Shown here piece by piece: positions 3,574 to 30,158 of a stretch of 39,523 bases of DNA. The stretch covers positions 1-39,523 of the forward strand of contig CAISYL010000138.1 of the NCBI GenBank assembly GCA_903889655.1, written 5' to 3'. This DNA is from an uncultured Alphaproteobacteria bacterium (GTDB taxonomy: Bacteria; Pseudomonadota; Alphaproteobacteria; Parvibaculales; Parvibaculaceae). How positions within the stretch are numbered: position 1 is the stretch's first letter; every line of letters starts with the position of its first letter. A program made the position numbers and the translations under genes. The notes under the pieces are model-generated. The model was not told the DNA's origin. It saw only the letters and a list, made by a program, of their open reading frames with translations, and made no database searches.

Positions 3574-3574
3574 T

Positions 3575-6732: not shown

Positions 6733-7091
6733 TCGACCATTTCCTTCCGGGCGGTCCGCGCAAGGCAGCGAAATATCATCGGCGCTCGCGTCCATTCGAA
6801 TTGGCGTCGTCATTCGAACACCGGGCATTGAGGCCGCCACGGAAATGCAACTAGCAAGCGGCATGCCACCTCCGCGACGGACCGCGCGGCGGCATCAGCG
6901 CTCGCATGGATGCATCGCAACGTATAGACACTCAGTCCCCTGATATGGCATGCCCTTATGAACGCGAAGCGTGGTTCGGGTGCGCGATCGGAAATCGACC
7001 GCTCCCTTCCGTTCCCCGGCAAGCCGGCAAAGTTTTCGAACCGATCGCCGGCTGGCCTGACGTCTTGGCGCGCAGGGGTGGAGCTTTTAGG
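6733..7091. other. Divergent intergenic region between the cupin operon and tetR
   Basis: No gene is supported here; the in-frame extensions of both flanking genes into this stretch lack family similarity. It should hold the divergent promoters of the 6732-2581 operon and the regulator. No copy of the TTAAGTA-N6-TACTTAA element was found in it. Confidence 0.45.
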
Positions 7092-8863: not shown

Positions 8864-8915
8864 AGTCCTCCTTCCATGTTCATGCGGAAACGAGAAGCAA
8901 GCATTGCCTTCAAAT

Positions 8916-9824: not shown

Positions 9825-9827
9825 TCT

Positions 9828-11342: not shown

Positions 11343-12377
11343 ATGCTCGCAACAAAACAGCCAGCTCTGCGTCACTTCTGGTACCCGGTCATGCCGGTCT
11401 CGATGCTCGATGACGGCCAGAAGCCATTCAGGCTCCTCGGCGAGAATATCGTGTTGTGGAAGCAGTCCGATGGCACGCTCGCCTGCCTCAAGGATCGCTG
11501 CTGCCATCGTACGGCCAAGCTGTCGCTTGGCTTCATCGAGAACGACAATGTCGTCTGCGGCTATCACGGTTGGACGTTCGACGGCAAAGGCAAATGCGTC
11601 CGTATCCCGCAAGGCGGCAACATGGAGAACTCGACGCTGTCGGTACCGAGCTATCATGTCGCGGAGAAATACGGCTATGTCTGGGTCGCGCTGGACGAAC
11701 CGCTGACCGGCATTCCCGATCTGCCCGAGGCTTCGGATGCCTCGTTCCGCAAGATCGATCAATTTTACGAACCCTGGAAGATCGGCGCGCTGCGGCTGAT
11801 GGAAAACTCCTTCGACGCGGCGCATGTCGCCTATGTCCATCGCAATACCTTCGGCAGCACCGACCGGCCGGAGATCAGCAAGAAGTCGGTGATCGAAATG
11901 CAGCCTTTCGGCTTCAGCTACACGACGGAAGCGCAAGTCGAAGTTCGCGGCACGGTCGCGCACAAGGCCGTGCAGACGAACGGCACCCAGACGACACGCT
12001 ACAATGAATCCGTCTGGTACATGCCTTTCATGCGCCGCACGGCGATCCGCTACCCCCACGGCCTCGTCCATGTGCTGATCACGGCCTCAACGCCGGTCGA
12101 CGACGAGAACACGATGGTCGTGCAGTGGGTCTATCGCAACGACACTGAGGAACAGGTCAGCACCGAGGACGTGATCGCCTTCGATCGCGCGGTGACGCTC
12201 GAGGACAAGCTCATTCTCGAAAGCTGTGAGCCGGATGTGCCCCTGGCGGTCGTCGACGGCGAGGAAATGCATATGGCGTCCGACAGGCCGGGCCTGACCA
12301 TGCGTCGCATGCTGACCGAGCTTCTCGACAAGTTCGGCGAGAAGGAACAACGCTTTACCAATATTGCCGCCGACTGA
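11343..12377 (+). CDS. Rieske non-heme iron oxygenase, oxygenase component (copy 1)
   Basis: 344 residues. The Rieske [2Fe-2S] centre is C-C-H, then sixteen residues, then C-G-Y-H (DRCCHRTAKL ... VVCGYHGWT). The mononuclear iron site is DAAHVAYVH inside MENSFDAAHVAYVHRNTFG. The N-terminus TKQPALRHFWYPVMP is typical of single-component terminal oxygenases that O- or N-demethylate (VanA, dicamba monooxygenase, NdmA/NdmB types). The start at 11343 is chosen because family similarity begins there; GGGAG lies about 13 bases upstream. It heads a unit with a transport binding protein and an aldo/keto reductase. No ferredoxin or reductase gene is nearby, so electrons must come from elsewhere. An N-demethylating role on methylated purines is a hypothesis. 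Confidence 0.85.
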   Translation: MLATKQPALRHFWYPVMPVSMLDDGQKPFRLLGENIVLWKQSDGTLACLKDRCCHRTAKLSLGFIENDNVVCGYHGWTFDGKGKCVRIPQGGNMENSTLSVPSYHVAEKYGYVWVALDEPLTGIPDLPEASDASFRKIDQFYEPWKIGALRLMENSFDAAHVAYVHRNTFGSTDRPEISKKSVIEMQPFGFSYTTEAQVEVRGTVAHKAVQTNGTQTTRYNESVWYMPFMRRTAIRYPHGLVHVLITASTPVDDENTMVVQWVYRNDTEEQVSTEDVIAFDRAVTLEDKLILESCEPDVPLAVVDGEEMHMASDRPGLTMRRMLTELLDKFGEKEQRFTNIAAD

Positions 12378-12462
12378 CCGCAGCGCGATCGCCGGAATAT
12401 GGGCCGGCATCCGGCCGGCTCATATATATCCCCGCCTTGTACTTCTTTGAGGGAATGAATTG

Positions 12463-13455
12463 ATGTTGCGAATTCTCGCGGTCCTGGCTCTCACGGCTTT
12501 CGGTTCGGCACTCGCGGCCGGAGGCGCCCAAGCGGAAGACAATGTCACCGTTGCGACAGGCTGGCTTCCCCAGGCCGATTTCGGCGGCTTCTTTCAGGCC
12601 CAGCAGGACGGCATCTACAAGAAGCACGGGCTCAACGTCACGATCAATGCAAACGCGACGCAAATGAGCACGATCCAGCTTCTCGCCGCGGGTGCCGCCG
12701 ATTTCGTTCGCCTGCCGAGTTCTTCCGTCGCGCTCAACATGGTCAAGCAGGATCTGCCCTATGTCGTGATTGCCGCCTTCTATCAGAAGGACCCGCAAGT
12801 GATCATGACGCATGAGGAAATGGGCTACAAAGATCTAAGCGAGCTCAAGGGCAAGCCCATTATGATCGCCCAGGAGGCCCGGACGAATTTCTGGAAGTTT
12901 CTACAGGTCAAATACGGCTTCACCGCGGATCAGGTGCGTCCCTATTCCTTCAGCGGCGCGCCGTTTCTTGCCGATCCGAAGGCCATCCAGCAAGGCTACC
13001 TGACCAACGACGTCCTCCGGATGAAGGAGCGGGGCTATAAGGTCAAGTACTTCCTGCTCGCCGATTACGGCTATTCCGGTTACGCGACGCTCATCGCCAC
13101 GTCGAAGAAAATGGTTCAGGAACATCCCGATGTGGTCCAGCGCTTTATCAATGCGAGCATCGAGGGCTGGTACGCCTATCTCTATGGCGACCGCACGGCC
13201 GTCAACGCAATGATCGCGGCGAAAAATCCGAACTTCCCCGTGGCGCATTCCGAAGGCGCGGTCGCCGTCATCAAGGAAGACAAGCTGATCGAAGGCGGCG
13301 ACGCGCAGACACTCGGCATCGGCGCGATGACCGACGCACGGTGGAAGAACGTCTTCGACATGTATGCGGAAGCCGGCGTCTATCCGAAGGATATGGATTA
13401 CCGCGCCGCCTATACGACCCAGTTCGTCGACAAGGGATACGGCCTGCGCAAATAG
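12463..13455 (+). CDS. ABC transporter substrate-binding protein, NMT1/ThiY-like
   Basis: 330 residues with a signal peptide ending GGAQA before EDNVTVATGWLPQADFGGFF. The NMT1/SsuA-type fold binds small heterocycles or sulfonates in the periplasm. Features include GIYKKHGLNVTI, the LLAAGAADF loop, ELKGKPIMI and the C-terminal DMYAEAGVYPKDMDY. The start is the ATG at 12463 with GAGGG nine bases upstream; a TTG three bases earlier is less likely. Its permease and ATPase are not adjacent, but the matching pair lies at 20419-22181 in the urate operon, so it probably feeds that transporter. Family members bind HMP, formyl-aminopyrimidine or riboflavin precursors, which fits a purine or ureide ligand. 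Confidence 0.83.
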   Translation: MLRILAVLALTAFGSALAAGGAQAEDNVTVATGWLPQADFGGFFQAQQDGIYKKHGLNVTINANATQMSTIQLLAAGAADFVRLPSSSVALNMVKQDLPYVVIAAFYQKDPQVIMTHEEMGYKDLSELKGKPIMIAQEARTNFWKFLQVKYGFTADQVRPYSFSGAPFLADPKAIQQGYLTNDVLRMKERGYKVKYFLLADYGYSGYATLIATSKKMVQEHPDVVQRFINASIEGWYAYLYGDRTAVNAMIAAKNPNFPVAHSEGAVAVIKEDKLIEGGDAQTLGIGAMTDARWKNVFDMYAEAGVYPKDMDYRAAYTTQFVDKGYGLRK

Positions 13456-14589: not shown

Positions 14590-15498
14590 TCAACCCTGGA
14601 CGGGGTGCGTCGCCAGCCAATGTCGCGCGACGTCGAGACGCGTCGCGATCCAGACGTGCTTATGCCCCAGAATATAGTCGAGAAACTTCGCCAGAGCGGC
14701 CGCCCTTGCCGGGCGGCCGACGATGCGGCAATGCAGGCCGACCGACATCATCCGGGGCGCATCTTCGGCATAGAGCTGGTCGAAACCGTCCTTCAGATAG
14801 GCAAGGAACTGATCGCCCGAGTTGAAGCCCTGCGGACTGGTGAAGCGCATGTCGTTGACATCCAGCGTATAGGGCACGATCAGTTGAGGTCGCCCCCATG
14901 TCCTATCGTAATAGGGAAGATCGTCGGCATATGAATCCGCGTCATAGGTAAAACCGCCCTCTTCGGCGACCAGTCGCGCCGTGTTCGGGCTGGTGCGGCC
15001 AGTGTACCAGCCGAAGGGGCGCTCTCCGGTCAGGCGGCGATGAATGTCGATCGCACGCGCCATATGTTCCCGCTCGACCTCTTCGGACACGAATTGATAA
15101 TTGATCCAGCGATAGCCATGCGAGGCGATTTCCCAGCCTGCTTCGAGCATCGCCTCGACCGCAGCCGGATTGCGTTCCATGGCCATAGCGACACCGAAAA
15201 CCGTCAGCGGGATGCCACGTTCGACAAAAAGACGGCGGATGCGCCAGAAGCCCGCGCGGCTTCCGTAATCGTAGAGGCTCTCCATGCTGACATGACGCAT
15301 GCCGGGGACGGGCTGCGCCGCGACGATCTCGGAAAGGAAGGATTCGGAAGCCTCGTCGCCGTGAAGAACGGAATTTTCGGCCCCCTCCTCGTAGTTGAGC
15401 ACGAACTGAACCGCCACGCGGGCGCCACCGGGCCATTGCGCATCCGGCGGCGTCATACCGTAGCCTATAAGGTCGCGGGGATAGGCCGGTGTATTCAT
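14590..15498 (-). CDS. puuE: Allantoinase, polysaccharide-deacetylase type (PuuE)
   Basis: 302 residues. The N-terminus YPRDLIGYGMTPPDAQWPGGARVAVQF (read as RDLIGYGMTPPDAQWPG, then ARVAVQFVLNYEEGAE) is the hallmark of PuuE. This metal-independent allantoinase of the carbohydrate-esterase-4 fold hydrolyses allantoin to allantoate. Further conserved parts are SLYDYGSRAGFWRIRR, GWEIASHGYRWINY and GWYTGRTSPNTARLV. The start at 15498 has GGAG seven bases upstream. It is the last gene of the long urate operon, 16 bases after pucG, and supplies the substrate of AllC encoded two genes upstream. Confidence 0.9.
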   Translation of the reverse strand: MNTPAYPRDLIGYGMTPPDAQWPGGARVAVQFVLNYEEGAENSVLHGDEASESFLSEIVAAQPVPGMRHVSMESLYDYGSRAGFWRIRRLFVERGIPLTVFGVAMAMERNPAAVEAMLEAGWEIASHGYRWINYQFVSEEVEREHMARAIDIHRRLTGERPFGWYTGRTSPNTARLVAEEGGFTYDADSYADDLPYYDRTWGRPQLIVPYTLDVNDMRFTSPQGFNSGDQFLAYLKDGFDQLYAEDAPRMMSVGLHCRIVGRPARAAALAKFLDYILGHKHVWIATRLDVARHWLATHPVQG

Positions 15499-15514
15499 CA
15501 AAAGCTCCGACGGA

Positions 15515-16756
15515 TCACGGATGTCTATCGTAAATGGCAAGTGCCGCAGCGACTGCCGCACCCGAAGGCAGCGCGAACCCCTCGCTCTTGAGCACCGCTT
15601 CGAGCGCACCCAACACGACGAGGACATTGTGCTTGCGGGCGTTGTGCCCCATCGCACCAATGCGCCAGATGCGGCCCTTCAACGGCCCGAAGGATGAGCC
15701 GATCTCGATTTCGAAGTCATTGCGCAGGCGCGTCCGTACGCGCTCTCCATCGATCCCTGCGGGAATTTCGATACCTGTCACATTCGCCATGCGATGCATG
15801 GGATCGCCGAAAAGCGTAAGCCCCATCGCCTCCAGTCCCGCCTGCATGGCGCGGCTGGCCATCTTGTGCCGATCGAAACAGCGAACAGACCCCTCCTGCA
15901 GAAAAAGACGCGCGCATTCCCGCGCCGCATAGAGCATCGATGTCGCCTCGGTGTGATGGTTGAGCCGGTCCTCCGACCAGTAATCCATCAGCATTGCGAG
16001 ATCGAAATAGTTCGATCCGATGCGTGGCCTCGATCCTGGCGCAACATCCGTCACCGCAAGCCCTCGTTCAACATGACGACGGGAGCGCATACAGTCTGCG
16101 GCACGATCGGATATCGTGATCGGCGCGCTGCCGGGAGGGCCGCCAAGACATTTCTGCAGCCCGGCGCTCACGACGTCGAGCTCCCAGGTATCCACCTCGA
16201 CCGGCATGCCGCCGAGTGTCGCCGTGGCATCGACATAGGAGAGGGCGCCGTAACGGCTGCATATTTCGCCGAGACCATCGAGCGGCTGAACCATGGTTGT
16301 CGAAGTATCTCCGTGAACGCAGGCGACGAGTTTCGGCCGCTCGCGTTCGACCGCCGCCTCGATTTCATCCATATCGAAGACGCGTCCCCATTCCGCTTCG
16401 ATCGTCACGACTCTCGCGCCACAGCGCTCAGCGATTTCGGTCAGCAAAAGTCCGAAGCGTCCAAAAGACGGGATCAGCACCGTCTCACCCGGCTCGATCA
16501 GCGAGACGAGTGCCGCTTCGATGCCGGCCCGCGCCGTTCCGTCGATCAGGAAGGTCCACCGATTTTCCGTCTCGAACACCGCACGGTAGAGCGCCATCAC
16601 CTCGTTCATGTAGCGTGTGAATTCAGGGTCGAATTGCCCGAGCAGGGGTGCCGACATTGCGCGCAGTACACGCGGATAAGCGTTGCTCGGCCCCGGCCCC
16701 ATCAACAGGCGCTGCGGCGGATCGAGTTCGTCGAAGATCCGCAAATCCTCACGCAT
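15515..16756 (-). CDS. pucG: (S)-ureidoglycine-glyoxylate aminotransferase (PucG-like)
   Basis: 413 residues of the class-V PLP aminotransferases related to serine-pyruvate/alanine-glyoxylate transaminase. Typical segments are LLMGPGPSNAYPRVLRAM, LLGQFDPEFTRYMNEV, the PLP-contact D176 (SYVDATATLGG) and Schiff-base lysine K202 (SAGLQKCLGGPPG). Placed between allC and puuE, it fits PucG, which moves the amino group of ureidoglycine to glyoxylate, giving oxalurate and glycine. Its ATG overlaps the allC stop by eight bases. The oxalurate product links this operon to hpxXYZ at the left of the window. A general alanine-glyoxylate transaminase is the alternative, less likely in this context. Confidence 0.83.
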   Translation of the reverse strand: MREDLRIFDELDPPQRLLMGPGPSNAYPRVLRAMSAPLLGQFDPEFTRYMNEVMALYRAVFETENRWTFLIDGTARAGIEAALVSLIEPGETVLIPSFGRFGLLLTEIAERCGARVVTIEAEWGRVFDMDEIEAAVERERPKLVACVHGDTSTTMVQPLDGLGEICSRYGALSYVDATATLGGMPVEVDTWELDVVSAGLQKCLGGPPGSAPITISDRAADCMRSRRHVERGLAVTDVAPGSRPRIGSNYFDLAMLMDYWSEDRLNHHTEATSMLYAARECARLFLQEGSVRCFDRHKMASRAMQAGLEAMGLTLFGDPMHRMANVTGIEIPAGIDGERVRTRLRNDFEIEIGSSFGPLKGRIWRIGAMGHNARKHNVLVVLGALEAVLKSEGFALPSGAAVAAALAIYDRHP

Positions 16757-18014
16757 GCGCGTGCCGCTGTGCGAGACGGTCCATGAAGCCGAGCAGAACC
16801 TGCGCGGCCCAGTCTACGTCGGCAGCCTCCACCGCCTCACGCGGGTTATGACTGACACCGCCCGCGCAACGGATGAAGAGCATCGCAACAGGCGCAAGCT
16901 TCGCCACGCTCATGGCATCGTGGCCTGCACCGCTCGAAAGCCTGAAGGACGGCATACCCAGATCCTCGATGGCTGCGGCAAGTATCTCGGAGAGATCCGG
17001 ATCGCATTTGCAAGCCGGCAGATCCTGATGCACGGCAAGTTCGATCGAGACATGTCGCGTTCGCGCGATTTCTTCGAGCGAAGCGTGGAATGAAGCCGCG
17101 GCGCCATCCCGCTCCGGCACATCCGGTGCGCGAAGGTCGACGGAAAAATGCGCTTCGCCCGGGATGACGTTGGTGGATGCCGGCAGAACCTCGATCTTTC
17201 CGACGGTCGCCACGAGCCCACGCGAACCTGCCGAGGCGATATCCTCGAGCGCGAGAATGGCTTCCGCCGCGGCGACGAGTGCATCGCGCCTCATCTCCAT
17301 CGGGGTCGTCCCGGCGTGACCGGCGGCGCCCTTGACACTAACATTCATGCGAAGCTGGGACGCTATTTCGGTGACAATGCCGACCGGCAGGCCTTCCGCT
17401 TCGAGCACCGGCCCTTGCTCTATATGCGCTTCGATATAGCCGAGGACTTCGCCGGGCATTCTCGCGGCGCGGGAAATCTTCGCGGCATCGAGCCCAAAAT
17501 TCGAGAAGGCTTCCGCCAGCGATATACCGTCGCTGTCGATATAGTTCCCAACAGGAACTTCGAACCCGCCTGCCATGGCGCGGCTGCCGATCATCGATGT
17601 CGGAAAACGCGATCCTTCCTCGTCTCCGAATGCGACGACTTCGACGGCGAAGGGAAACCGCCTGTCCACCGCCGCGAGCACCTCGACACAGCCAAGCCCA
17701 AGCATGATTCCGAGAGCGCCGTCATATCGGCCCGCGCGCTGAACGGAATCGATATGCGAGCCGATGATCAATGCCGGCGCGCCCGGCTCTGACGCTTCAT
17801 AGCGGCCGATGAAATTTCCGGCTTCGTCAAGTCTCACGGACATGCCCGCCGCACGCATCCATTGCGCCAGCGTTTCGAGAGCGGCAGCGTGCGCGCGGGT
17901 CAGGAACCTTCGCGTGAGGTGTTCGGCCGTCTCGCTATAAGGAGGCTTGCCAAAGAAGTCGCAGCGACCCACCGCCACGCTGCCGACACTCGATTTTTCC
18001 GCCACATAGTTCAT
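16749..18014 (-). CDS. allC: Allantoate amidohydrolase (M20 family)
   Basis: 421 residues of the dinuclear-metal M20 amidohydrolases. Metal ligands are readable: H in IIGSHIDSV (near 87), D in GRYDGALG (98), E in FGDEEGSRF (132/133), H in EAHIEQGP (197) and H in GGVSHNPRE (389). The dimerisation lid includes KGAAGHAGTTPM, whose histidine is conserved in allantoate and N-carbamoyl amino-acid hydrolases. It cleaves allantoate to ureidoglycine with release of CO2 and ammonia. The start used is ATG at 18014; an in-frame TTG at 18023 overlapping the uraH stop is possible. Between uraH and pucG, allantoate is the best substrate; N-carbamoyl amino acids or ureidoglycolate are alternatives. Confidence 0.85.
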   Translation of the reverse strand: MNYVAEKSSVGSVAVGRCDFFGKPPYSETAEHLTRRFLTRAHAAALETLAQWMRAAGMSVRLDEAGNFIGRYEASEPGAPALIIGSHIDSVQRAGRYDGALGIMLGLGCVEVLAAVDRRFPFAVEVVAFGDEEGSRFPTSMIGSRAMAGGFEVPVGNYIDSDGISLAEAFSNFGLDAAKISRAARMPGEVLGYIEAHIEQGPVLEAEGLPVGIVTEIASQLRMNVSVKGAAGHAGTTPMEMRRDALVAAAEAILALEDIASAGSRGLVATVGKIEVLPASTNVIPGEAHFSVDLRAPDVPERDGAAASFHASLEEIARTRHVSIELAVHQDLPACKCDPDLSEILAAAIEDLGMPSFRLSSGAGHDAMSVAKLAPVAMLFIRCAGGVSHNPREAVEAADVDWAAQVLLGFMDRLAQRHAHA

Positions 18015-18019
18015 CGCAC

Positions 18020-18367
18020 TCAACTGCCCAGATATGTCGTGTAACCGAACGGGCTCATGATCAACGGAACATGATAGGCCCGGCTCGGATCGCCGACTGA
18101 AAAGCGCACTGGGACATCCTCGAAAAATGGCTCCGTGCCGGATTGCGGGGGGGTACCGCGGCGATACTCGCCCACAAAGAAGACAATCTCGTATTGACCG
18201 GCCGTGAAGTCCGCGCCTTCGAGCAGAAGCGCCCGGCCATCGTCACCGAGCGCCACCATTCGGGATGCCGTAACCTCGGGCGCCAGCCTCCGCACGGAAA
18301 TGCGCAAGCCACCCGCACCGACGCCTCGAACCGTGTCGAGAACATGCGTCGTCAGTTTGCCGGCCAT
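18020..18367 (-). CDS. uraH: 5-hydroxyisourate hydrolase (transthyretin-like), atypical C-terminus
   Basis: 115 residues of the HIUase/transthyretin-like family, which hydrolyses 5-hydroxyisourate to OHCU. The usual catalytic positions are present: H8 (LTTHVLD), R45 (DDGRALL) and H99 (RAYHVPLIMSPFGY). The nearly invariant C-terminal YRGS tetrapeptide reads YLGS here (codon CTG), replacing the arginine. The start at 18367 begins the family similarity and overlaps the upstream monooxygenase gene by 16 bases. It lies directly between the candidate urate hydroxylase and allC, with uraD one gene further upstream, so the pathway role is well supported. The tetrapeptide change may alter activity or substrate choice. 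Confidence 0.87.
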   Translation of the reverse strand: MAGKLTTHVLDTVRGVGAGGLRISVRRLAPEVTASRMVALGDDGRALLLEGADFTAGQYEIVFFVGEYRRGTPPQSGTEPFFEDVPVRFSVGDPSRAYHVPLIMSPFGYTTYLGS

Positions 18368-19809
18368 GTTCCGACGAACTCCTCTGTACGATAGGCCAGA
18401 AAATCGCCGAGAATTTCCACCCGGTCGTCGAGGAAAAGCTGACGCGTGATGCCCGCAACAAGTCGGGGCACCGCGAATTTCATGCCCGATAGCGAGGAGG
18501 CCGAGAGGCCGAGACTGGCCAGCGCCGAATAATTGAAAGCAAAGAGGCCGTGGAGCCTTTCCGCGGCTTCCGGTCCGCGCGGCAGGAACTCGAAATTGGG
18601 ACCGAGATAGGGATGCTCGTCGACCAGCGGATGGGATTTTCCAATCGGGCGATAGCGATCCTTCCAGCGGGCGATGTCGTCGACCAATGGCCGCAGTTCC
18701 GGTCGAAGCGCGGCGTCGGTCAGAAGCCCAGTGCTGATTACGAGAAAGGAAAAATCGTAGCTGCCCCTGGCGGTCATGACGCGCACACCGTCGTCCAGCG
18801 CCATTACCTCTTCCCACGGCTCTGCTGCATGAAGCCGGAAACCGGGATAGGCGGATGCCCGATTGTAGGTGTCGTTCGTCGGCGGCTGGCTGTGATCGAG
18901 AAAGAAGCCGACGCCGCGATATCTTTCCTCATCGTTCATGTCCGCGAAATGGCGCATGAAGCCCGCATTTTCCATGAAGCGGATCGGATTGATGCGTGGC
19001 AGTTCGGTCTTGCGAAAAAACACATGCGCCTCGCGCACACCGGAGCGCAGCGCATATTGGGCGTTGTCGAAGGCGGAGGCTCCGGCGCCGAGGATGCCGA
19101 TCGATTTTCCCTTCAGCGCATCGTAATCGATCGCCTGCGAGGTGTGCCCATAAAGATGGTCTGGCAGGGCCTTCGCGACAAATTCCGGCACATGCCATTC
19201 GCCGCCGCCCTGAATGCCGGTCGCAAGCACGACCTTGCGCGCGAGGATAACGCCCTGTTCGGGCGCGGCGGCGCCCGAGACGGCAAGCCTGAACACGCCT
19301 TCATTCGCCGGCTCGACCAGATCGAGATGCACCTCGTTGCGAACCGGCAGCTCCAGCACGGCGCGGAGCCAGCGGAGATAGCTCATCCAGTCTTCCTTGA
19401 GAATCTTATCGAGCGCGCCCCATGCGTCGAGCCCATGCTGTGCTTCCCACCAGGCACGGAAGGTCAATGATGGAATGCCGAGATCAGGCCCGACGAGATG
19501 CTTCGGCGTGCGCAGCGTCACCATCCGCGCGTAGGTTGCCCACGGCCCCTCGAAACCTTCGCGATTCTCGTCGATCACGAGGATGTTCGAGACCTTCTCC
19601 CGAATGAGACCGAAGGCGACCGCGAGGCCGCCCTGCCCGCCGCCGACGATCACGACATCCCAGACATGCAAGCCGGAGGGATGCGCTCTCGATCGCACCC
19701 AGGATTGCGTCGGATAATCGAGGCAGTCGAGATCGTGCCTTACCCGGGCGGCGAGCTCCGCCAGTCCGCATCCGACTCTTCCAGGCTCGTCACGCAACGA
19801 CAATGTCAT
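18352..19809 (-). CDS. Flavoprotein monooxygenase, candidate urate hydroxylase
   Basis: 485 residues with two Rossmann motifs: GGGQGG at 56-61 for FAD, and GILGAGASAFD near 238-248 for NAD(P)H. This is the layout of class-B flavoprotein monooxygenases. A 50-residue N-terminal segment precedes the FAD motif. The gene lies inside the urate chain, overlapping uraD (ATGA) and uraH (16 bases). No classical uricase (UOX) or HpxO is visible, so this protein is the natural candidate for oxidising urate to 5-hydroxyisourate. From memory, a non-HpxO flavoprotein urate hydroxylase (HpyO) is known in Xanthomonas, and this may be its homolog; an alignment is needed. An N- or C-hydroxylase of a substituted purine is the main alternative. 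Confidence 0.72.
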   Translation of the reverse strand: MTLSLRDEPGRVGCGLAELAARVRHDLDCLDYPTQSWVRSRAHPSGLHVWDVVIVGGGQGGLAVAFGLIREKVSNILVIDENREGFEGPWATYARMVTLRTPKHLVGPDLGIPSLTFRAWWEAQHGLDAWGALDKILKEDWMSYLRWLRAVLELPVRNEVHLDLVEPANEGVFRLAVSGAAAPEQGVILARKVVLATGIQGGGEWHVPEFVAKALPDHLYGHTSQAIDYDALKGKSIGILGAGASAFDNAQYALRSGVREAHVFFRKTELPRINPIRFMENAGFMRHFADMNDEERYRGVGFFLDHSQPPTNDTYNRASAYPGFRLHAAEPWEEVMALDDGVRVMTARGSYDFSFLVISTGLLTDAALRPELRPLVDDIARWKDRYRPIGKSHPLVDEHPYLGPNFEFLPRGPEAAERLHGLFAFNYSALASLGLSASSLSGMKFAVPRLVAGITRQLFLDDRVEILGDFLAYRTEEFVGTWPAN

Positions 19810-20372
19810 CCGGCAACGCCCGCCCCTTTTATGTTCATGTCGAGGAGGCGGTATCGCGCGATCTCGATAATCTCGGCGATCGCGATCCGCCTTTCTTCCT
19901 CGCCATGACCGCCGAGGCGACGACCGAAAGCTTCGAGAATGGATTTCTTGTCGTTCCGCCGCGCGCAGATGACAAAGGGGAAACCGAATTTGCGCCTATA
20001 GGCCTGATTGAGGGTGTGGAAGCGCATGCCCTCCTCGCGCGTGAGATGCATCAGGCCGGCGCCGCCCTGCTCCCTGCGCGAATTCGGAGTGAGCGCATGG
20101 ACAACCATCATTTTGCCGGCGAGATCCGGATGAGCGCGGATCAATTCGATCTGAGCCGCAGCGCCGGCCTCCTCGATAATCGCGGCGCAGGCATCGATCA
20201 GTGCGCCAGCATCGGCGAATGGGCGCCGGTCGGCTGCCTTCCTCGCAATCCATGGCGAATGCTCGAAGAGATGGCCCAACTTCTCGACGAAGACGTCGCG
20301 ACTCCATTTGTTCACCTCGTCAAGCGTCGGCGCGGAAATCGCCGCGGATGATGCAGCCAGACCGATGGTCAT
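19806..20372 (-). CDS. uraD: OHCU decarboxylase
   Basis: 188 residues with the OHCU decarboxylase signature set: FVEKLGHLFEHSPWIA, RPFADAGAL, the catalytic histidine H81 in LIRAHPDLAGK, NSRREQGGAGL, and LNQAYRRKFGFPFVICARR. The enzyme turns 2-oxo-4-hydroxy-4-carboxy-5-ureidoimidazoline into (S)-allantoin and keeps the pathway stereospecific. A GGAGGGAG ribosome-binding site precedes the ATG. It lies 46 bases after the ABC permease and overlaps the monooxygenase gene by ATGA, inside the minus-strand urate operon. Confidence 0.92.
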   Translation of the reverse strand: MTIGLAASSAAISAPTLDEVNKWSRDVFVEKLGHLFEHSPWIARKAADRRPFADAGALIDACAAIIEEAGAAAQIELIRAHPDLAGKMMVVHALTPNSRREQGGAGLMHLTREEGMRFHTLNQAYRRKFGFPFVICARRNDKKSILEAFGRRLGGHGEEERRIAIAEIIEIARYRLLDMNIKGAGVAG

Positions 20373-20418
20373 CGTCTCCCTCCACGCTTGCAGGCCTTGA
20401 ATATTGTTATCTCGTCGT

Positions 20419-21273
20419 TCAGCGCTCGGTCCGGATCGCGCTCTCGTGCCACGTGCGGAGTAGCAGGTGCTGAAGTGCCGTCAGCGCCGCAAAATTGAAG
20501 ACTCCGAGGCCGGAGAGCAGAAAGAGCGCAGCAAACATGCGCGGCGTATCGAGATCGTTCGCGGCCTCGACGATGCGCCAGGCGAGACCTGTGGCGCTGC
20601 CGGAGCCGGCAACGAATTCCGCAACGACGGAACCGATCAGCGCAAGACCGCCGGAAATCTTCATGCCACCGAGGATGTAGGGCAACGAACTCGGCAATTC
20701 GAGTTCGACGAGGCGCTGCCACGATGTCGCCCGGTTGAGAAGAAAAAGATCGCGCAGATTGTGGTCGACACTTCTGAGGCCGAGCGTCGTATTCGACAGG
20801 ATCGGGAAGAAGGCGACGACGGTGGCGAGAATGAGCAAGGCACGGTCGACATGATCGAGCCCGACCCAGATGAGCAAAAGGGGTGCGATCGCGATCATCG
20901 GCGTGACCTGCAAAATCACGGCAAGCGGGAAGACAGCCATTTCCAGAATGCGAAAGCGGGCGAAAATGACGGACATCCCGATGCCGCTCAGCACGGCCAG
21001 CAGGAAGGCCTCGATCATGACTGAGAAAGTGATCGCGAGCGATCGCAGCAAAACGGGCCAGTTCTGTGCCAGCGCCTCCCCGATGACCGAGGGTGCCGGC
21101 AGAATGACTTTCGAGACGCCAAGCTCGCGAACGGCGATCTCCCAGACGACGACCAGAAAAAGGACGAAGGTGATCGGCACCACGGCATGAAGCCAGCGGC
21201 CGGCGGTTTCGGATCGCATGAAGTGCAGCGGCAGAAGCCGGAGACGACGGGGCTCGGTTGCGATCACGGACAT
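20419..21273 (-). CDS. ABC transporter permease, TauC/SsuC/ThiX type
   Basis: 284 residues, with about six hydrophobic helices beginning at HAVVPITFVLFLVVVWEIAV. The cytoplasmic EAA loop reads ELPSSLPYILGGMKISGGLA and contacts the ATPase. This is the inner-membrane channel of a nitrate/taurine/pyrimidine-type importer. The start ATG at 21273 shares bases with the ATPase stop (TGATG), so the two are translationally coupled. The matching binding protein is the NMT1-like protein at 12463-13455. Located directly upstream of uraD, it probably imports a urate- or ureide-related compound. Confidence 0.88.
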   Translation of the reverse strand: MSVIATEPRRLRLLPLHFMRSETAGRWLHAVVPITFVLFLVVVWEIAVRELGVSKVILPAPSVIGEALAQNWPVLLRSLAITFSVMIEAFLLAVLSGIGMSVIFARFRILEMAVFPLAVILQVTPMIAIAPLLLIWVGLDHVDRALLILATVVAFFPILSNTTLGLRSVDHNLRDLFLLNRATSWQRLVELELPSSLPYILGGMKISGGLALIGSVVAEFVAGSGSATGLAWRIVEAANDLDTPRMFAALFLLSGLGVFNFAALTALQHLLLRTWHESAIRTER

Positions 21274-22181
21274 CAATGTTCTCCATCGCCGGCGGCGCTG
21301 GCGCTGTGAAGTGCAGCCGAGACCCGCGTACAATATTCGCCATAGTCAGAGGACGTCCGGAATGCTTCGTTGCGCGGATAGGCGGCGTCTATCTCGATAT
21401 CGTCGCTCAGCCGGCCCGGACGGCCGGTCATGACGACGATGCGCGACGAGAGATAAACGGACTCATAGATGCTGTGGGTGACGAAGACGACGGTCCAGCC
21501 CTGCTGCTCCCAGAGGTGGAGAAGATCGTTGTTGAGTTTCGTCCTCGTGATTTCGTCGAGCGCGGCGAAGGGTTCGTCCATCAGCAGGATTTTAGGCCGC
21601 TTGACCAGCGCACGCGCAATCGAGACGCGCATTTTCATGCCGCCGGAAAGCTGGCGCGGATAGGCCGCCGCGAAACGAGCCAAGCCGGTCATCTCCAGCG
21701 CTTCCGTGACCCGGTCGTGAGCATCCTTGCGCTTTACACCGCCGAGCTTCAACGGCAGGTAGACATTGTCGAACACGGTGCGCCAGGGCATCAGCGTCGG
21801 CTCCTGAAAGACGAAGCCGAGGTCGGGCATCGGATGGCCCTTGGCGTCATAGGTCGACGTGGGCCAGTCGATTTCGCCCGCGCTCGCGGTGCCCAATCCG
21901 GCAATCAGCCTGAGCAGCGTGGACTTTCCGCATCCCGACGGACCAACGAGGCTGACGAATTCGCCCGCATTGATGTCGAGATCGATCTTCTCGAGCGCGT
22001 TGGTGCCGTTCCGGTAGGTCTTCGTGACGCCGTCGATGCGGATGATCGGCCGCTTCGATGTCGCTACGGCATCGCTTTCCATTACCGGAACTGTCTTCGC
22101 GGGAAAGCTCTGCGCCGTCGGCATGACGATCGAGGTTTTGAAATTCTCAACCAGGTTCACGACGTTGCCTTCCCTCGCCAT
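21273..22181 (-). CDS. ABC transporter ATP-binding protein, TauB/SsuB type
   Basis: 302 residues. Walker A is GPSGCGKST, the Q-loop region contains FVFQEPTLMPW, the signature is LSGGM, Walker B with its adjacent glutamate is ILLMDEPFAALDE, and the switch histidine lies in FVTHSIYES. A 40-residue tail precedes the first strand, so the true start may be one of the ATG codons at 22124 or 22082 rather than 22181; none has a strong ribosome-binding site. It forms the motor of the importer with the permease that follows. Confidence 0.88.
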   Translation of the reverse strand: MAREGNVVNLVENFKTSIVMPTAQSFPAKTVPVMESDAVATSKRPIIRIDGVTKTYRNGTNALEKIDLDINAGEFVSLVGPSGCGKSTLLRLIAGLGTASAGEIDWPTSTYDAKGHPMPDLGFVFQEPTLMPWRTVFDNVYLPLKLGGVKRKDAHDRVTEALEMTGLARFAAAYPRQLSGGMKMRVSIARALVKRPKILLMDEPFAALDEITRTKLNNDLLHLWEQQGWTVVFVTHSIYESVYLSSRIVVMTGRPGRLSDDIEIDAAYPRNEAFRTSSDYGEYCTRVSAALHSASAAGDGEH

Positions 22182-22259
22182 CGATCAGCCACTCGTTCTC
22201 ACTCACGCTCACGTCGCATGGCGGAAGCCACCGGCCATCCGCCATCGACGCCAACTCGT

Positions 22260-22919
22260 TCAGGCAGCGCGCGACGCCGCTTCCTTCCGCTTGCCGTTGC
22301 CCGAGGTTCCCTCGCCGGCATAGGCCGTCGTTTCGAGCAGAAAGCTCTTGAAGGCGTCGGTGATGATCTCGGAAAGGCGGTGCAGAACGTTATGGCCGAT
22401 CAGGCCGAACAGCGCCGTACCGATACCCATGGCGGTGGCAAAGAGCGCGGTACCGATGCCGCGGCTGACGGCGCCCGGATCCGAGATGCCGCCGGCCGAA
22501 AGCGCCGTGAACGTATCCATGATGCCGAGAATGGTGCCGAGCAGGCCGAGCAGCGGCGCCGCCGTCACGATCGTGTCGAGAATCCACAGGCGGACGTTCA
22601 CCCGGCTGTCGACGCGCAGATAGAGCGCCGCACTCAGATCCTCGAGCCGCTCATAGGACATGTCGGACTGGCGCTGCATTTCGACATATTCGACCATCGC
22701 CTGGCTCAGAACATCGCTCCGGCGCTTGATCTTCGGCATGGGGTGGCTGCGGTCGGCGCTCATCACGACCTTGTGGATCGCGTTTCCGATGCTGCGGCTC
22801 ACCATGTTGAGATAGGCGTAATATGCGAGCCGCTCGATGATCACGAAGGTGAGCACGACGATCGACGCATAGAGCAGATCGATCGAAGCGGTGTGGAGAA
22901 GGTCGGTATTGAACATCAT
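22260..22919 (-). CDS. exbB: ExbB/TolQ/MotA-type proton-channel protein
   Basis: 219 residues with three membrane segments: near 13-30 (DLLYASIVVLTFVIIERL), then the pair WILDTIVTAAPLLGLLGTILGIMDTF and GIGTALFATAMGIGTALFGL. The TAAPLLGLLGTILG and TALFATAMGIGTAL blocks are the ExbB/TolQ signature. Together with ExbD it uses the proton gradient to energise TonB. The ATG pair at 22919/22916 is chosen because similarity begins there. It follows tonB by 55 bases and precedes the ABC ATPase, an unusual position for the gene. Confidence 0.87.
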   Translation of the reverse strand: MMFNTDLLHTASIDLLYASIVVLTFVIIERLAYYAYLNMVSRSIGNAIHKVVMSADRSHPMPKIKRRSDVLSQAMVEYVEMQRQSDMSYERLEDLSAALYLRVDSRVNVRLWILDTIVTAAPLLGLLGTILGIMDTFTALSAGGISDPGAVSRGIGTALFATAMGIGTALFGLIGHNVLHRLSEIITDAFKSFLLETTAYAGEGTSGNGKRKEAASRAA

Positions 22920-22974
22920 GCTGCACCAATACTGTTGGAAGAAACCGGATCCGGGTGTTGAATCTTCACGTGGC

Positions 22975-23643
22975 TCAACCCGGCGAGACAAATTCGATCG
23001 TAACGAGGAAGACGTGCGCCGCTTGTCCCGGCCAGGCATTCGCCGGGATGGGCGGTGGATTGCCGTTGGTCACTGTCGAGATCGCCTGCTGGTCGAGGAT
23101 AGGCGAGCCCGCACTGCTGATGACGGACACATCCGAGATGGCGCCGCTGCGGTTCATCGTGAACTGGATCTTCGCCGATCCCTGCATCTTCTGGAGGCGC
23201 GCCTTGCGGTCCTTCGGATATTTGGTGATCGATTTGAAGTAGCTGTGCAGCACACCGATGAATTGCGGTTCGATCGATGACACGACGGGCCTCGCCTGAA
23301 CAGGTGCAGGCGGCTGCTTGACGGGCACCGGCTGCTGAACCTGCTGCACCACGGGCTTTGGCGGCGTGGGGGGCTTCGGCTTCTGCTTCTTGGGTTTGGG
23401 CGGCAGCAACGGCACGGTCGGCGCCGTGGTCACCGGCGGGGGTGGCGCTTCCTGGACAGGCGCCGGCGGCGTTGGCTCCGGCGGCGGCGCCATCAGCGTT
23501 ACCGCGACTTCTTCCACGGGGGGCGTCGGAGGCGGCGGCGGGGGAAGCGGCTGCTGATGGGCCATTCCCCAAACCGCAGCGACCGTCACCAGGAAGGCAA
23601 AGGTATTTGTGGTCCGTTCGGTGGTGCGACTGCTGGCCTGCAT
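22975..23643 (-). CDS. tonB: TonB protein
   Basis: 222 residues with TonB architecture: a short basic N-terminus, one membrane anchor (TFAFLVTVAAVWGMA), and a long proline-rich spacer with Pro-Glu and Pro-Lys stretches (PPPPPPTPPVEE, LPPKPKKQKPKPPTPPKP). The C-terminal domain has YPKDRKARLQKMQGSAKIQF, SGAISDVSVISSAGSPILD and a VTIEF strand. It spans the periplasm and delivers energy to outer-membrane receptors. It starts two bases after the exbD stop. Having its own copy inside the catabolic operon suggests it is dedicated to the receptor at the left edge. Confidence 0.9.
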   Translation of the reverse strand: MQASSRTTERTTNTFAFLVTVAAVWGMAHQQPLPPPPPPTPPVEEVAVTLMAPPPEPTPPAPVQEAPPPPVTTAPTVPLLPPKPKKQKPKPPTPPKPVVQQVQQPVPVKQPPAPVQARPVVSSIEPQFIGVLHSYFKSITKYPKDRKARLQKMQGSAKIQFTMNRSGAISDVSVISSAGSPILDQQAISTVTNGNPPPIPANAWPGQAAHVFLVTIEFVSPG

Positions 23644-23645
23644 GG

Positions 23646-24050
23646 CTATTTTGCCTTTGCCACAATGGATGCGGCCGGAACACCCGCCCGCTTCAAGGCA
23701 TCGAGAACATCCACGAGATTCTGCAATTCGGAAGCGCCGTCGCCGGCGATGATGACGATCGGCTTGACCTGCGTTGCGAGCAATTTCAACTGATCGGTCA
23801 GCTGATCGATGGTGACGGCATTGCCGTCGAGGTAGGTGTGGCCGTCCTTATCGATAGTCAGCGTGACCTTCTTCTGATCGACGAGCCTTTCGGTTTCCGA
23901 CGATTGCGGCAACGCCACCTTGAGGCCCAGAGCCGGGAGCACGTTCATGCTGATGAGCACGAAGAACACCAGCAGAAACATCATGACGTCGATCATCGGA
24001 ATGATTTCGATGCGCGCGCGGCGCTCGCGACGTTCAGGCCAATCTCTCAT
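23646..24050 (-). CDS. exbD: ExbD/TolR-type protein
   Basis: 134 residues: a cytoplasmic basic N-terminus (ERRERRARIEIIP), then one membrane helix with the essential aspartate (MIDVMMFLLVFFVLISM), then a periplasmic domain with KVALPQSSETERL, VTLTIDKDGHTYLDG and the C-terminal KRAGVPAASIVAKAK. A near-perfect AAGGAGG precedes the ATG at 24050. It is the first of the exbD-tonB-exbB trio, 54 bases after the Rieske gene, and forms the proton-driven motor with ExbB. Confidence 0.9.
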   Translation of the reverse strand: MRDWPERRERRARIEIIPMIDVMMFLLVFFVLISMNVLPALGLKVALPQSSETERLVDQKKVTLTIDKDGHTYLDGNAVTIDQLTDQLKLLATQVKPIVIIAGDGASELQNLVDVLDALKRAGVPAASIVAKAK

Positions 24051-24104
24051 CTCGCCTCCTTGTGTCCATCGGACAACACAACAATTCCGAGCCGGCAAGC
24101 ATCT

Positions 24105-25205
24105 CTAAAGAACTTCCTCGAAGCCTGGCTCCGCCAGACGTTCCGACGAGACCTCCTTCGTCGTCGCAAGGCCCGCTCGCGCGGGCGCCTTCGAATAATC
24201 GCGCGTGATTTCTTCCTCGCCGTTCTGACGAAGGAGGTCCAGCAGGCGCCGACGCATGATGAGGCCCGGCCTGTCGGACGGCATATGCGCCTCGATCTTG
24301 CGCTGAACGTCCAGAATGGCGTCGCAGTCGGTCGCTTCGAGAACCTCGCGATCCTCCTCGACAATCGCCGCATCCCATTCGATCAGCTTCTGCGCGGGGC
24401 AATCGGCTTCCGTGTCGTTGCGGAAGAGAAGCTGGATCAACTGGATTCGGTCATCGTCGATCGGCGTCGCGACATTGATGATGATGTGCCGGACGCCGCT
24501 CGGATATTCCATGTCCATGCGCCGGCCAAAGGGCATGTACCAGTGATTGTGCATCGTGCGCGTGGTAAGCGGCTCCGTGCAGCCCGTCACCTGATGGGCG
24601 CTCGGTGGATTGAGAATCTCGGCTACCGTGAAGCCCTTGAAGCCGTAGTCGGTCTCCTCGATTTCGTATTTGGCGGGCTTCGGCTGCGCCATGTTGCCGA
24701 AGGTCCTCTTGTGCACGAAGGAGAAGTGCGCGTTGTCGAACGAGTTCTCCATCAGGCGCAGCGGCGCCGTGCGCCACGATTCGTAGAACTGAAAGATGCG
24801 GCGGAAGCCAGGGTCGCGGTCTTCCGGAATATCGAAGATAGGCGCCAGCGGTTCTTCGAGAGCGACCCAGGCGTAGCCATAACGCGCCGCGCAGCGATAG
24901 GCCTCGACGTTGAGGCGCGGCACCGCGCCGTCGGTCTGTGGCACGCGTACGAGCGCGCCGGCGGAGTCGTAGGTCCAGCCATGATAGGGGCAGACGATCT
25001 GCCCCTTCTCGCACCAGCCCTTCGATAGTTTCGCCGTGCGATGACGGCAGCGGTCTTCAAGCGCGACCGGCTGCCCTTCCGCGTCGAGAAAAAGCACGAG
25101 ATTCTCGCCCATCAAACGGAAAGGCTTCGGCCCATCGCTCAGCGCATCCAGCCGAACCGTCGGATACCAGAAGCGGCGAAACGTCTTCTGCTGCGTCGTC
25201 AGCAT
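24105..25205 (-). CDS. Rieske non-heme iron oxygenase, oxygenase component (copy 2)
   Basis: 366 residues, paralogous to the protein at 11343: both begin ML-T-Q-FR/LR-FWYP and share RHRTAKLS, MENSFD and a late SDRPGL-MRR motif. The Rieske cluster is C-R-H, then sixteen residues, then C-P-Y-H. The mononuclear iron site is DNAHFSFVH. The start at 25205 has GGAGGG six bases upstream. It is the first gene of the long urate operon, so its product is expected to act at the entry of the pathway, for instance removing a substituent to expose urate or xanthine (inference). About 40 extra C-terminal residues distinguish it from copy 1. No reductase partner is encoded in the window. Confidence 0.86.
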   Translation of the reverse strand: MLTTQQKTFRRFWYPTVRLDALSDGPKPFRLMGENLVLFLDAEGQPVALEDRCRHRTAKLSKGWCEKGQIVCPYHGWTYDSAGALVRVPQTDGAVPRLNVEAYRCAARYGYAWVALEEPLAPIFDIPEDRDPGFRRIFQFYESWRTAPLRLMENSFDNAHFSFVHKRTFGNMAQPKPAKYEIEETDYGFKGFTVAEILNPPSAHQVTGCTEPLTTRTMHNHWYMPFGRRMDMEYPSGVRHIIINVATPIDDDRIQLIQLLFRNDTEADCPAQKLIEWDAAIVEEDREVLEATDCDAILDVQRKIEAHMPSDRPGLIMRRRLLDLLRQNGEEEITRDYSKAPARAGLATTKEVSSERLAEPGFEEVL

Positions 25206-25756
25206 TCTTCGCCCTCCGTCTCGCATGCCGACGAGATTCCGACGCGTTTCGCTTCGCCGGAGAGCGCGGCAATGGCGCACTCACTCAAAATCATCGTGGC
25301 GATGGCGATACGCGGTTCGATCATCGGGGCGGCCTCACTCGTGAACATGACGGGAATTTTGCAATCCCCGTGCCACCCAAAAACCGCAGAATCGCGTAGG
25401 GACTGCCCGCCGAATACGCAGAAGGCGCCATCAGAAGACCGCCGATGCCGGTAAATTGAAGCCGGTTCCGGGGCTTTATGGAGTAAATGATTACTGAATA
25501 AGCATGCCTCCGCAGGGGCATTGTGGCGGTCTGCTGCGAAAAACCCCATGAATCCAAGCGCTTAACTTCGGCACGAAACGGCGACGCTGAACAATCTTGT
25601 TCGAAAATTGTGCGCCCTGCGCGTCCATGCGGCACAATTGCTCCGCAGACAATCGACACGATGCGCCTCTTGCACAGGCTTTTCGGGCTGGTGCCGCCGT
25701 CGACCGCTCCTATCTATGGAGCATCAAACCCATCGAAGAACCCGCCGGAGCCCTCC
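25206..25756. other. Divergent regulatory region between the urate operon and the LLM oxidoreductase
   Basis: 551 bases without a supported gene. It contains the palindromic element at 25479-25498 in a locally AT-rich patch and should carry the promoter of the operon running from 25205 to 14590. In-frame extensions of both flanking genes into it have no family similarity. Confidence 0.5.
25479..25498. promoter_or_regulatory. Operator-like palindrome upstream of the urate operon
   Basis: TGGAGTA, spacer AATGAT, TACTGAA: the same 7-6-7 spacing and AGTA-N6-TACT core as the sites at 7961 and 11005. It lies about 275 bases upstream of the second Rieske gene, which starts the urate operon. Half-sites match the perfect version at 5 and 6 of 7 positions. 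Confidence 0.5.
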
Positions 25757-28061: not shown

Positions 28062-30158
28062 ATGCCGACCTGGAAACTGCCGACCTGGAGTCGCCTCCCC
28101 CTGGCGTGGAAACTCCTTCTGCCAATCATGACCGCCCTGGTCATCGGTCTCGGCTCTTCCGCGTGGCTTACGTCCAACCGGGCTGGCGCAACGACGACCG
28201 ATCTGTCATTCAAGCTCGGCCAGGAAACGGCCGGCCATGCGGTGGCCGACGTCCGTGCCCGCCTCGACAAGACATTCACGATCACGCGAACGGTTGCGCT
28301 GGTCGGTCAAGAAGCCCAGTCGCTCGGCATGCAACGGGCCAATATCATCGGCCTGCTGACACGTCTTGCGGCCGCCAATCCGGACATCGCCGGCCTTAGG
28401 CTCGAGTTTCTGACGAATGCTTACGACAGTGCGGATGCCGCTCATGTCGGAGAGCAGGGCGCAGCACCCAACGGTCGTCTCGCCGCCTACGTGACAATCG
28501 TGGATGGCAAGGCTCAAGTGGCCGCTTCCTCGGAGACCGATCCGATGAAACTCGATGTCTTTGCCCAGACCGCTCAACGCGGCAGGGACACGGTCGTCGG
28601 CCCTTACCGGGCAAAACTCGGCGGCAGAGAGAGCTGGATCGTCGCCCTCGCGTCGCCCATCCGTTCGGCCGACAAGATCATCGGCGTGGCCGTCGCCGAA
28701 ATCGACCTCAGTACGCTCAACGCGGTGTTCAACAAGCTCTCGCCTTTCGAGACAGGTTCGGTTTCTCTTATTTCCAACGATGGCCGCTGGATCACTTACA
28801 AGAACCAAGCTCATGTCGGACATCCCATCGTCGACACCTGGGCCAGGCTCTCAAATGCGTTGAATGCCATCGCGCAAGGCAAAGCCGCCGGCGATCTCGA
28901 CTACTCGATCTCGCTCAAGACCGATGTGCAGCGCTTCTACGTTCCCGTCGCGGTCGGCACCACGGGTACCTATTGGTCGGCGCTCGTCAACCTGCCGATG
29001 GACAAGATTGCGGCGCCAACGAAGTCGATCACGCACATGACGCTGATGATCTCTGCGTTCCTCATCGTCATTCTCGGGCTCGTCATCGTGGCGCTCGTCT
29101 CCTCGCTGGCCGCCAGGCCAATCCGCGTCCTGACTAGCACGGTCGAATGCCTCGCCGCCGGCGATACGTCGCAATCCGTGACCGGTACGAATCGGGGCGA
29201 CGAACTCGGCACGATGGCGAAAGCTGTCGAGTTCTTCCGCCGCAAGCTCATCGAGATCGACGAGCTTCAGGCCCAGCGCAAGCACGCCGAACATGAAGCC
29301 GAACAGGCACGCCGGAAAGGCATGCTCGAAATGGTCGACCGCTTCGAGCAGGGCGTACAGGGCGTCGTCCAGTCCGTTTCCGCCTCTGCCGTCGAACTCG
29401 AAGCCAATGCGCGCTCCATGACATCGGTCGCCGAGGAGGTCAACAAGCAGGCGGTCGCCGTCGCCACGGCAACGCAGGAAGCCTCCAGCAACGTCACGAC
29501 AGTCGCATCCGCGTCGGAGGAGCTTTCCGCTTCGATCGCCGAGATCAACCGTCAGGTCACCGAGAGTTCGCAAGCTTCGGCCACGGCCGTTTCGGAAGTG
29601 ACGCAGACGAGCCTCACAGTCGAACAGGTCGCGGCGGCAGCCAACGAGATCGGGGATGTGGTTCGGCTCATCAACGATATCGCCGGACAGACAAACCTCT
29701 TGGCGCTCAATGCAACCATCGAAGCAGCCCGCGCGGGCGAAGCCGGCAAGGGCTTTGCGGTGGTCGCCTCGGAAGTGAAGACCCTGGCGAGCCAGACGGC
29801 GAAGGCGACGGAGGAAATCTCGGCGAAGATTTCGCATATCCAGACGACGACGGCCGAAGCCGTCGGCGCGATGGACCGTGTGAGCTCCATCATCGGCCGG
29901 GTCAACGAAATCGCGGCCACGATCGCCGTCGCCGTGCAGGAGCAATCGGCGGCAACGGGCGAAATCTCGGGCAACGCGCAGCATGCCGCGGCGGGCACCG
30001 ACGAGGTGAGCCGCAACATTGGCGAGGTGAGCCGAGCGGCGAACGACGCCGGCAATGCGGCTTCGGAGGTTCTGCTCGCATCGGGTGAACTCGCACAGCA
30101 GGCGGAACTGCTGCGCCGCGAGGTTGATACGTTCATTGCCGGCGTTCGCGCCGGCTGA
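28062..30158 (+). CDS. Methyl-accepting chemotaxis protein
   Basis: 698 residues. A membrane helix near 14-36 is followed by a periplasmic Cache-like sensor of about 280 residues, then a second helix ([21 protein letters not shown]), a HAMP linker ([18 protein letters not shown] ... [14 protein letters not shown]) and a cytoplasmic signalling domain. The kinase-contact tip is readable as [20 protein letters not shown] followed by [18 protein letters not shown]. The receptor controls CheA in response to an unknown periplasmic ligand. The C-terminus has no NWETF-type CheR/CheB tether. It stands alone, with no che genes in the window. Confidence 0.93.

Follow-up and report, generated by a model that had tools for sequence, protein, structure and literature searches.

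In Klebsiella, the hpx genes comprise a urate-to-oxalurate route, a Rieske oxygenase and an AtzE/AtzG-type pair, and TonB-dependent receptors are known to serve a set of nutrient classes. The urate oxidase of Xanthomonas species is HpyO, which uses FAD and NAD(P)H according to PMC4562309, and some Lysobacterales genomes harbour an HpyO-type urate cluster made up of allC, pucG, puuE, uraD, a flavoprotein gene and uraH. Similarly, work on the xanthine riboswitch (PMC7373994) ties NMT1-type transporters, along with Rieske and 2-oxoglutarate dioxygenases, to xanthine and urate. Among the titles and beginnings of abstracts listed from the open-licence literature, none links a TonB motor to the breakdown of urate. 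Here, we analyse a 39,523 nt stretch of DNA from an uncultured alphaproteobacterium of the Parvibaculaceae (CAISYL010000138.1; hereafter the window), one entire contig (C138) of a 4.36 Mb genome assembled in 294 contigs, which contains a variant of the known urate operon that includes a TonB motor. We give an even chance to the reading that this is a nitrogen-controlled purine scavenging locus, combining TonB-driven uptake, conversion by a Rieske oxygenase and breakdown of urate to oxalurate.

The operon spans 14590-25205 and consists of twelve intact genes, all on the minus strand, identified through open reading frame (ORF) lists, Pfam and NCBIfam cut-offs and the closest solved structures in the PDB. 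In the direction of transcription these are Rieske oxygenase A, of the VanA_C type (24105-25205; Pfam Rieske and VanA_C); exbD (23646-24050; ExbD), tonB (22975-23643; TonB_C) and exbB (22260-22919; MotA_ExbB); the ATPase (21273-22181; ABC_tran) and permease (20419-21273; BPD_transp_1) of an ATP-binding cassette (ABC) importer; uraD, for 2-oxo-4-hydroxy-4-carboxy-5-ureidoimidazoline decarboxylase (19806-20372); a flavoprotein gene (18352-19809; FAD/NAD(P)-binding); uraH, for 5-hydroxyisourate hydrolase (18020-18367; HIUase/transthyretin); allC, for allantoate amidohydrolase (16749-18023; M20 peptidase); pucG, for ureidoglycine-glyoxylate aminotransferase (15515-16756; class-V aminotransferase); and puuE, for allantoinase (14590-15498; polysaccharide deacetylase). 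All twelve products exceed Pfam cut-offs; the ATPase appears taurine/nitrate/sulfonate-like, the NCBIfam matches shown for it all being below cut-off. The tonB and permease genes sit in frames other than the longest ORFs, and allC starts at either TTG 18023 or ATG 18014. Intergenic gaps range from -16 to 55 bp throughout the run, except that between exbB and the ATPase gene, which is 78 bp with a start at ATG 22181 and larger otherwise. An earlier note, made from the sequence alone, had described such a run of twelve closely spaced minus-strand genes and had named their enzymes from family motifs; the run is confirmed and the names are right at family level.

All six pathway genes are common to this operon and the Lysobacterales cluster, but the gene order differs and no matches to the Rieske gene, the TonB set or the NMT1-type ABC genes were found in the six Lysobacterales loci, three of which have xanthine dehydrogenase (XDH) in the stretch. 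The Klebsiella hpx system resembles the locus in its route to oxalurate, its Rieske oxygenase and its AtzE/AtzG-type pair, whereas the window has a probable HpyO-type urate step rather than HpxO, a Rieske protein outside the HpxD clade and the TonB set. The gene set of the xanthine riboswitch (NMT1 motif), as described in PMC7373994, likewise includes NMT1 binding proteins, tauA-type ABC genes and both types of dioxygenase; however, no xanthine riboswitch was found in the window or in eight related loci, and control by this element was rejected on that basis.

A sigma-54 (-24/-12) promoter motif, TGGCACGGGGATTGCA, lies on the minus strand at 25360-25375, starting 170 nt upstream of the Rieske gene, and is the single exact occurrence in the window of the consensus TGGCACG-N4-TTGCW, for which 0.01 were expected. 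The same motif stands at the head of the urate operon, ahead of uraD, in other genomes of the genus, being exact in G012 and G016 and having one mismatch in G014 and two in G030 (the operon starts of the latter two being estimated), such that all five same-genus operons, the window's included, are headed by a site with at most two mismatches. Among 4000 random 450-bp stretches, from loci that include true sites, 142 had a site of this quality and five an exact one, and in seven clusters outside the genus the region before the presumed first gene showed three to five mismatches. Judging from these sites, the genus seems to drive its urate operon from sigma-54. The window scan found no sigma-54 site with fewer than three mismatches ahead of exbB, the ATPase gene or uraD, and a consensus scan, which returned 18 terminator-like sites in the window against 9.5 expected, placed none in the eleven intergenic gaps; the leader contains a weak 5-pair terminator-like stem at 25292-25304. 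The best argument for one transcript is that the Rieske, TonB and ABC genes lie between the sigma-54 site and uraD with no new site before uraD. A single transcription unit of twelve genes, as the earlier note had proposed, is thus well supported as a prediction, both by the lone exact site at its head and by the same motif heading the urate operons of the genus. Further upstream, an inverted repeat, AATTGTGC-N18-GCACAATT (25606-25639), may be an activator site.

Within the catabolic part, AllC (NF006775), PuuE (TIGR03212) and UraD (TIGR03164) exceed NCBIfam cut-offs, UraH falls narrowly short (85.0 against 87.45 bits), and PucG is named from its closest solved structure, the ureidoglycine-glyoxylate aminotransferase 3nnk (E 6e-160). 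By homology, the pathway from urate to oxalurate is complete in the operon, with the urate-oxidising step most likely performed by the flavoprotein, to which it is assigned from homology and neighbourhood. The flavoprotein matched no PDB structure at E 0.001; it is read as, most likely, an HpyO-type urate hydroxylase because it is 58% identical, in a full-length comparison, to a Lysobacterales protein whose gene likewise lies with uraD and uraH. Copies of 64-67% identity lie between uraD and uraH in the same-genus genomes G012, G014, G016 and G030, and copies of 52-62% do so in a Rhodospirillales metagenome-assembled genome, Novosphingobium PP1Y, Sphingobium V4 and Niveispirillum. Among 200 Lysobacterales genomes, six have the flavoprotein (56-59%), in each case within pucG-puuE-uraD-flavoprotein-uraH and with allC. 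The order uraD-flavoprotein-uraH is kept in all four same-genus genomes with a close copy and in six of six Lysobacterales loci; altogether, the window and 22 further loci place the flavoprotein with uraD and/or uraH. Further copies without either gene are a second one in G014 (43%) and one in G032 (41%). The C-terminus of UraH is YLGS in the window, as opposed to YRGS or YRGG in 22 of 22 homologs from other loci, which may represent an altered substrate or a one-base error. On plasmid p5 of the Gram-positive Priestia filamentosa (L048 13075-15425), a 56% identical flavoprotein gene follows uraD-uraH beside a nucleobase symporter gene, an apparent transfer of an hpyO-like gene across phyla. 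HpyO-like genes that neighbour uraD/uraH, both in Alphaproteobacteria and on this single Gram-positive plasmid, provide more candidates for a direct test of urate hydroxylation.

The motor is identified by ExbB, ExbD and TonB_C domains above Pfam cut-offs. The best plasmid relative of its ExbB is in Methylosinus sp. C49 (ExbB 54%, ExbD 62%), with another in Chimaeribacter arupi (ExbD 42%, ExbB 35%); in both, the order is exbD, a gene in the tonB position, a TonB-dependent receptor gene and exbB. The tonB-position protein of Methylosinus had no Pfam match, nor did it match the window's TonB significantly. In the alphaproteobacterial genome G390, exbD, tonB and a receptor gene run up to a contig edge, and pieces of exbB stand at the starts of two other contigs. 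Set against these three, the window's exbD-tonB-exbB resembles such a set minus its receptor: the receptor family is shared, but the window's receptor gene stands apart and its motor genes are embedded in a catabolic operon. No full-length relative of the ExbB exceeds about 30% identity in 39 family genomes, short pieces reaching 49%, and at E 1e-20 it is found in two of 385 class genomes, the window's own and G390. The motor and a flavoprotein homolog co-occur in G000 and G390, a sample too small to weigh.

A fitting receptor gene is present at the left edge of the window (3-1568, minus strand), where the contig edge cuts it to its N-terminal 522 aa. It was first found as the frame 9-1559 in a search with the Methylosinus receptor, 3-1568 being the open-ended reading, having escaped both the initial ORF lists and a receptor-barrel search because the frame runs off the contig. 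Its Plug domain scores 45 bits, and it matches the set receptors of Methylosinus (35%, 5e-96), G390 (29%, 6e-59) and Chimaeribacter (30%, 4e-56). Among the stretches with the genome's other receptors, only one, on contig C289, matched (29% over 204 aa, 1e-20); it was rejected as the cognate receptor, since it is a weaker match to the Methylosinus protein than the window's own. In Sphingomonas parapaucimobilis and Novosphingobium capsulatum, relatives of the window's receptor adjoin pnuC, and a nucleotidase gene comes after the Methylosinus set, neighbours which hint at nucleoside-like ligands but prove nothing; other relatives, in Kozakia, have unrelated neighbour genes. At L240, L241 and L245, relatives adjoin a phosphotransferase-like gene and pnuC, a context that suggests uptake of the nicotinamide riboside type. 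A receptor of the same family also occurs on a Gluconobacter oxydans H24 plasmid (L243 6755-11604), one LysR gene away from a 37% identical flavoprotein homolog.

The 22 comparison loci were those with the flavoprotein and uraD and/or uraH (L156 and L162 with uraH only), in stretches about 7 to 47 kb long, so that absence means absence within the stretch. Left out were 26 of 32 class stretches lacking uraD and uraH, L155 (the same record as L047), L009 (a 5-kb contig on which just the flavoprotein and allC genes lie), L012, L013, L050, L051, G014's second copy, G032, G009 and three weaker places from the Lysobacterales search; plasmid records examined numbered six of 335. A home-made receptor profile was applied to 21 of the 22 comparison loci, the Gram-positive one being excluded; at 1e-8 it did not list the window's own truncated receptor, which rests on the Methylosinus search, the Plug domain and the pairwise matches. 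Some receptor lay within the stretch in six of the 21 (that in L049 being a fragment at the stretch end), a count that is only suggestive because Sphingomonads and Xanthomonads hold many receptors. In G012 and G016, a receptor gene followed by a binding-protein gene is divergent from the urate operon, and as these genomes are 98% identical their receptors count as one event. Their binding proteins are 45-46% identical to an NMT1/ThiY-type periplasmic protein in the window (12460-13455, plus strand), a probable partner of the ABC importer from its family match and these homologs; in G012, the ATPase (64%) and the permease (47%) have homologs some 3 kb beyond puuE. The G012/G016 receptor was itself rejected as the cognate one, the window's genome having no close copy.

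In the mechanism we propose, sigma-54 RNA polymerase would, from the motif and layout, transcribe a single unit ordered Rieske-exbD-tonB-exbB-ABC-uraD-hpyO-uraH-allC-pucG-puuE. TonB-ExbB-ExbD would energise a receptor, most likely the 3-1568 product, allowing a purine or purine-like compound to cross the outer membrane, and the NMT1-type binding protein and ABC importer would move it inward. The Rieske oxygenase would convert the compound to urate or a urate-level compound, from which HpyO, UraH and UraD would be expected to form allantoin, and PuuE, AllC and PucG oxalurate; AtzG/AtzE would then probably split the oxalurate. TonB-driven purine uptake, a proposal drawn from one genome, is plausible given that the locus also encodes a receptor of the family that suits the motor. 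More tentatively, the locus may be dedicated to taking up and breaking down a purine derivative, such as a nucleoside or an alkylated or decorated purine, with its own motor, receptor, binding protein, ABC importer, urate-trimming Rieske oxygenase and nitrogen control. If so, bacteria would spend membrane energy on collecting purine nitrogen, a nutrient class would be added for TonB-dependent receptors, and the receptor, binding protein and Rieske oxygenase would form a ready gene set for finding the compound. The earlier note had suggested TonB-dependent capture of a bulky, alkaloid or cytokinin-like purine; the link to uptake gains from the receptor at 3-1568 and from the receptor and binding protein of G012 and G016, but such a ligand is not supported, as nothing in the data identifies it.

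A number of observations weigh against the scavenging reading. ExbB, ExbD and TonB matches at E 1e-3 were absent from all 22 other loci, which makes the linkage a single case; the earlier note had taken clusters in which the tonB set never travels with the pathway as evidence against it, and on this point the comparison goes partly against the link, with no motor beside the pathway in the 22, although receptors lie near it in six of 21. The best NCBIfam scores of ExbB and ExbD are to TolQ and TolR, with the models of both pairs all below cut-off; no receptor gene occupies the 55-bp gap between tonB and exbB, unlike in the related sets; and the genome has seven TonB_C matches, the operon's own included, as well as 15 receptor-barrel matches besides the window's receptor. 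That receptor is incomplete and lies in another gene run, 13 kb past the operon end and 21 kb from the motor, and its sigma-54-like site has one mismatch, such sites being at chance level (3 found, 1.34 expected). Relatives of the G012/G016 receptor in the window's genome reach only 25-38%, and the xanthine riboswitch is missing from the window. Finally, flavoprotein homologs occur in 28 of 385 class genomes at E 1e-60, with neither uraD nor uraH beside them in the 26 of 32 class stretches mentioned above, indicating that the wider family has other roles and that membership alone is no proof of a urate substrate.

Among the alternatives, it is possible, if somewhat unlikely, that the Rieske oxygenase acts as a molybdenum-free xanthine hydroxylase, replacing XDH with an HpxD-like function, and that xanthine or hypoxanthine enters without TonB; the enzymatic part of this proposal is compatible with purine scavenging too. 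It would account for XDH adjoining uraD in G014 and G030 when the window's genome has only a 28% relative, and Rieske A is 31% identical to HpxD, hpxDE being reported to act in hypoxanthine and xanthine oxidation according to PMC7373994. However, XDH coexists with a Rieske homolog in G014 and G030, where the Rieske gene belongs to another cluster, and no HpxE-type reductase was found among the window proteins scanned, the rest of the genome not having been searched for one. A midpoint-rooted tree of 12 proteins, including two HpxD and two Paraburkholderia caffeinilytica rows but not NdmA or NdmB, and with long branches flagged among its outer rows, also places Rieske A, the window's Rieske oxygenase B (11343-12377, plus strand; 47% identical to A, named from family match and tree), the copies in G014, G030 and G334 and one Variovorax protein together in a clade that is separate from the HpxD and P. 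caffeinilytica rows. Rieske A was rejected on this tree both as a plain HpxD and as kin of the caffeine-degrader proteins, one of which is 30% identical to it. Vitamin B2 catabolism was likewise rejected as a model for the step, as it involves a Rieske dioxygenase of two subunits, together with ferredoxin and reductase. The Rieske cluster and mononuclear iron motifs are intact by eye. In favour of the scavenging reading, the nearest solved structures to Rieske A are SxtDIOX, SxtT, NdmA and NdmB, which act on purine-like rings; a purine ring is the natural guess for its substrate.

Close Rieske relatives within the family occur only in G014 and G030 (48-49%). In G014, they belong to a two-strand cluster of an ABC importer, Rieske, isochorismatase, flavodoxin-like, cytosine deaminase, binding protein, FAD oxidase, creatininase and cupin genes, in which the isochorismatase is 69% identical to that at 5534-6313 of the window; the G030 contig has a permease, Rieske, isochorismatase (67%) and binding protein, and in G334 similar partners, along with a ureidoglycolate lyase, accompany three Rieske copies. 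A putative N-heterocycle module of this kind, with Rieske copies, an NMT1-type ABC system, isochorismatase, cytosine deaminase, FAD oxidase, creatininase and cupin, is seen at L122, L124, L166 and L205.

It is also doubtful that the TonB-ExbBD set is a passenger, landed between the promoter and the urate genes and serving unrelated receptors for iron chelates or vitamins. Its absence beside the 22 other urate loci would be expected of a passenger, as would the rarity of its ExbB, which makes a recent acquisition likely, and the receptor relatives beside pnuC in Sphingomonas and Novosphingobium point to a vitamin-type ligand there. Yet the same locus holds a receptor of the motor-associated family, gaps of 54, 2 and 55 bp hold the set within the operon, and some receptor accompanies six of the 21 urate loci scanned. 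An arrangement in two units, a Rieske-TonB transcript and an ABC-urate transcript with its own promoter, is improbable, as the exbB-ATPase gap, although the largest, contains no sigma-70-type or terminator-like site in consensus scans, and neither exbB, the ATPase gene nor uraD is preceded by a sigma-54 site with fewer than three mismatches, such as relatives have at the operon head.

In the purine scavenging reading, homology suggests that the pathway probably continues beyond oxalurate. A candidate oxalurate amidohydrolase of the AtzE family (3955-5358, minus strand) scores 711 bits against the NF006631 cut-off of 461, and an AtzG-like small subunit gene (5355-5537, minus strand; PF13318 above cut-off) overlaps its start, giving the adjacent pair. 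G012, G016, Novosphingobium, Sphingobium and three Lysobacterales loci also have an AtzE homolog close to their urate genes. The pair belongs to a minus-strand group at 2581-6864 with cupin, isochorismatase-like (RutB/BiuH-like, below cut-offs) and formamidase-like genes, which is upstream of the receptor gene, likewise on the minus strand, and separated from it by 1 kb. Three tandem TauD-type 2-oxoglutarate dioxygenase genes lie at 8024-10667 (minus strand); fungal XanA hydroxylates purines, and by analogy a similar activity is possible for this trio. In two loci of the genus Niveispirillum (L047 and L154), uraH has a chemoreceptor gene at a distance of about 1.0-1.2 kb, and the window has one at 28062-30158 (plus strand), possibly reflecting purine chemotaxis or merely a shared signalling domain.

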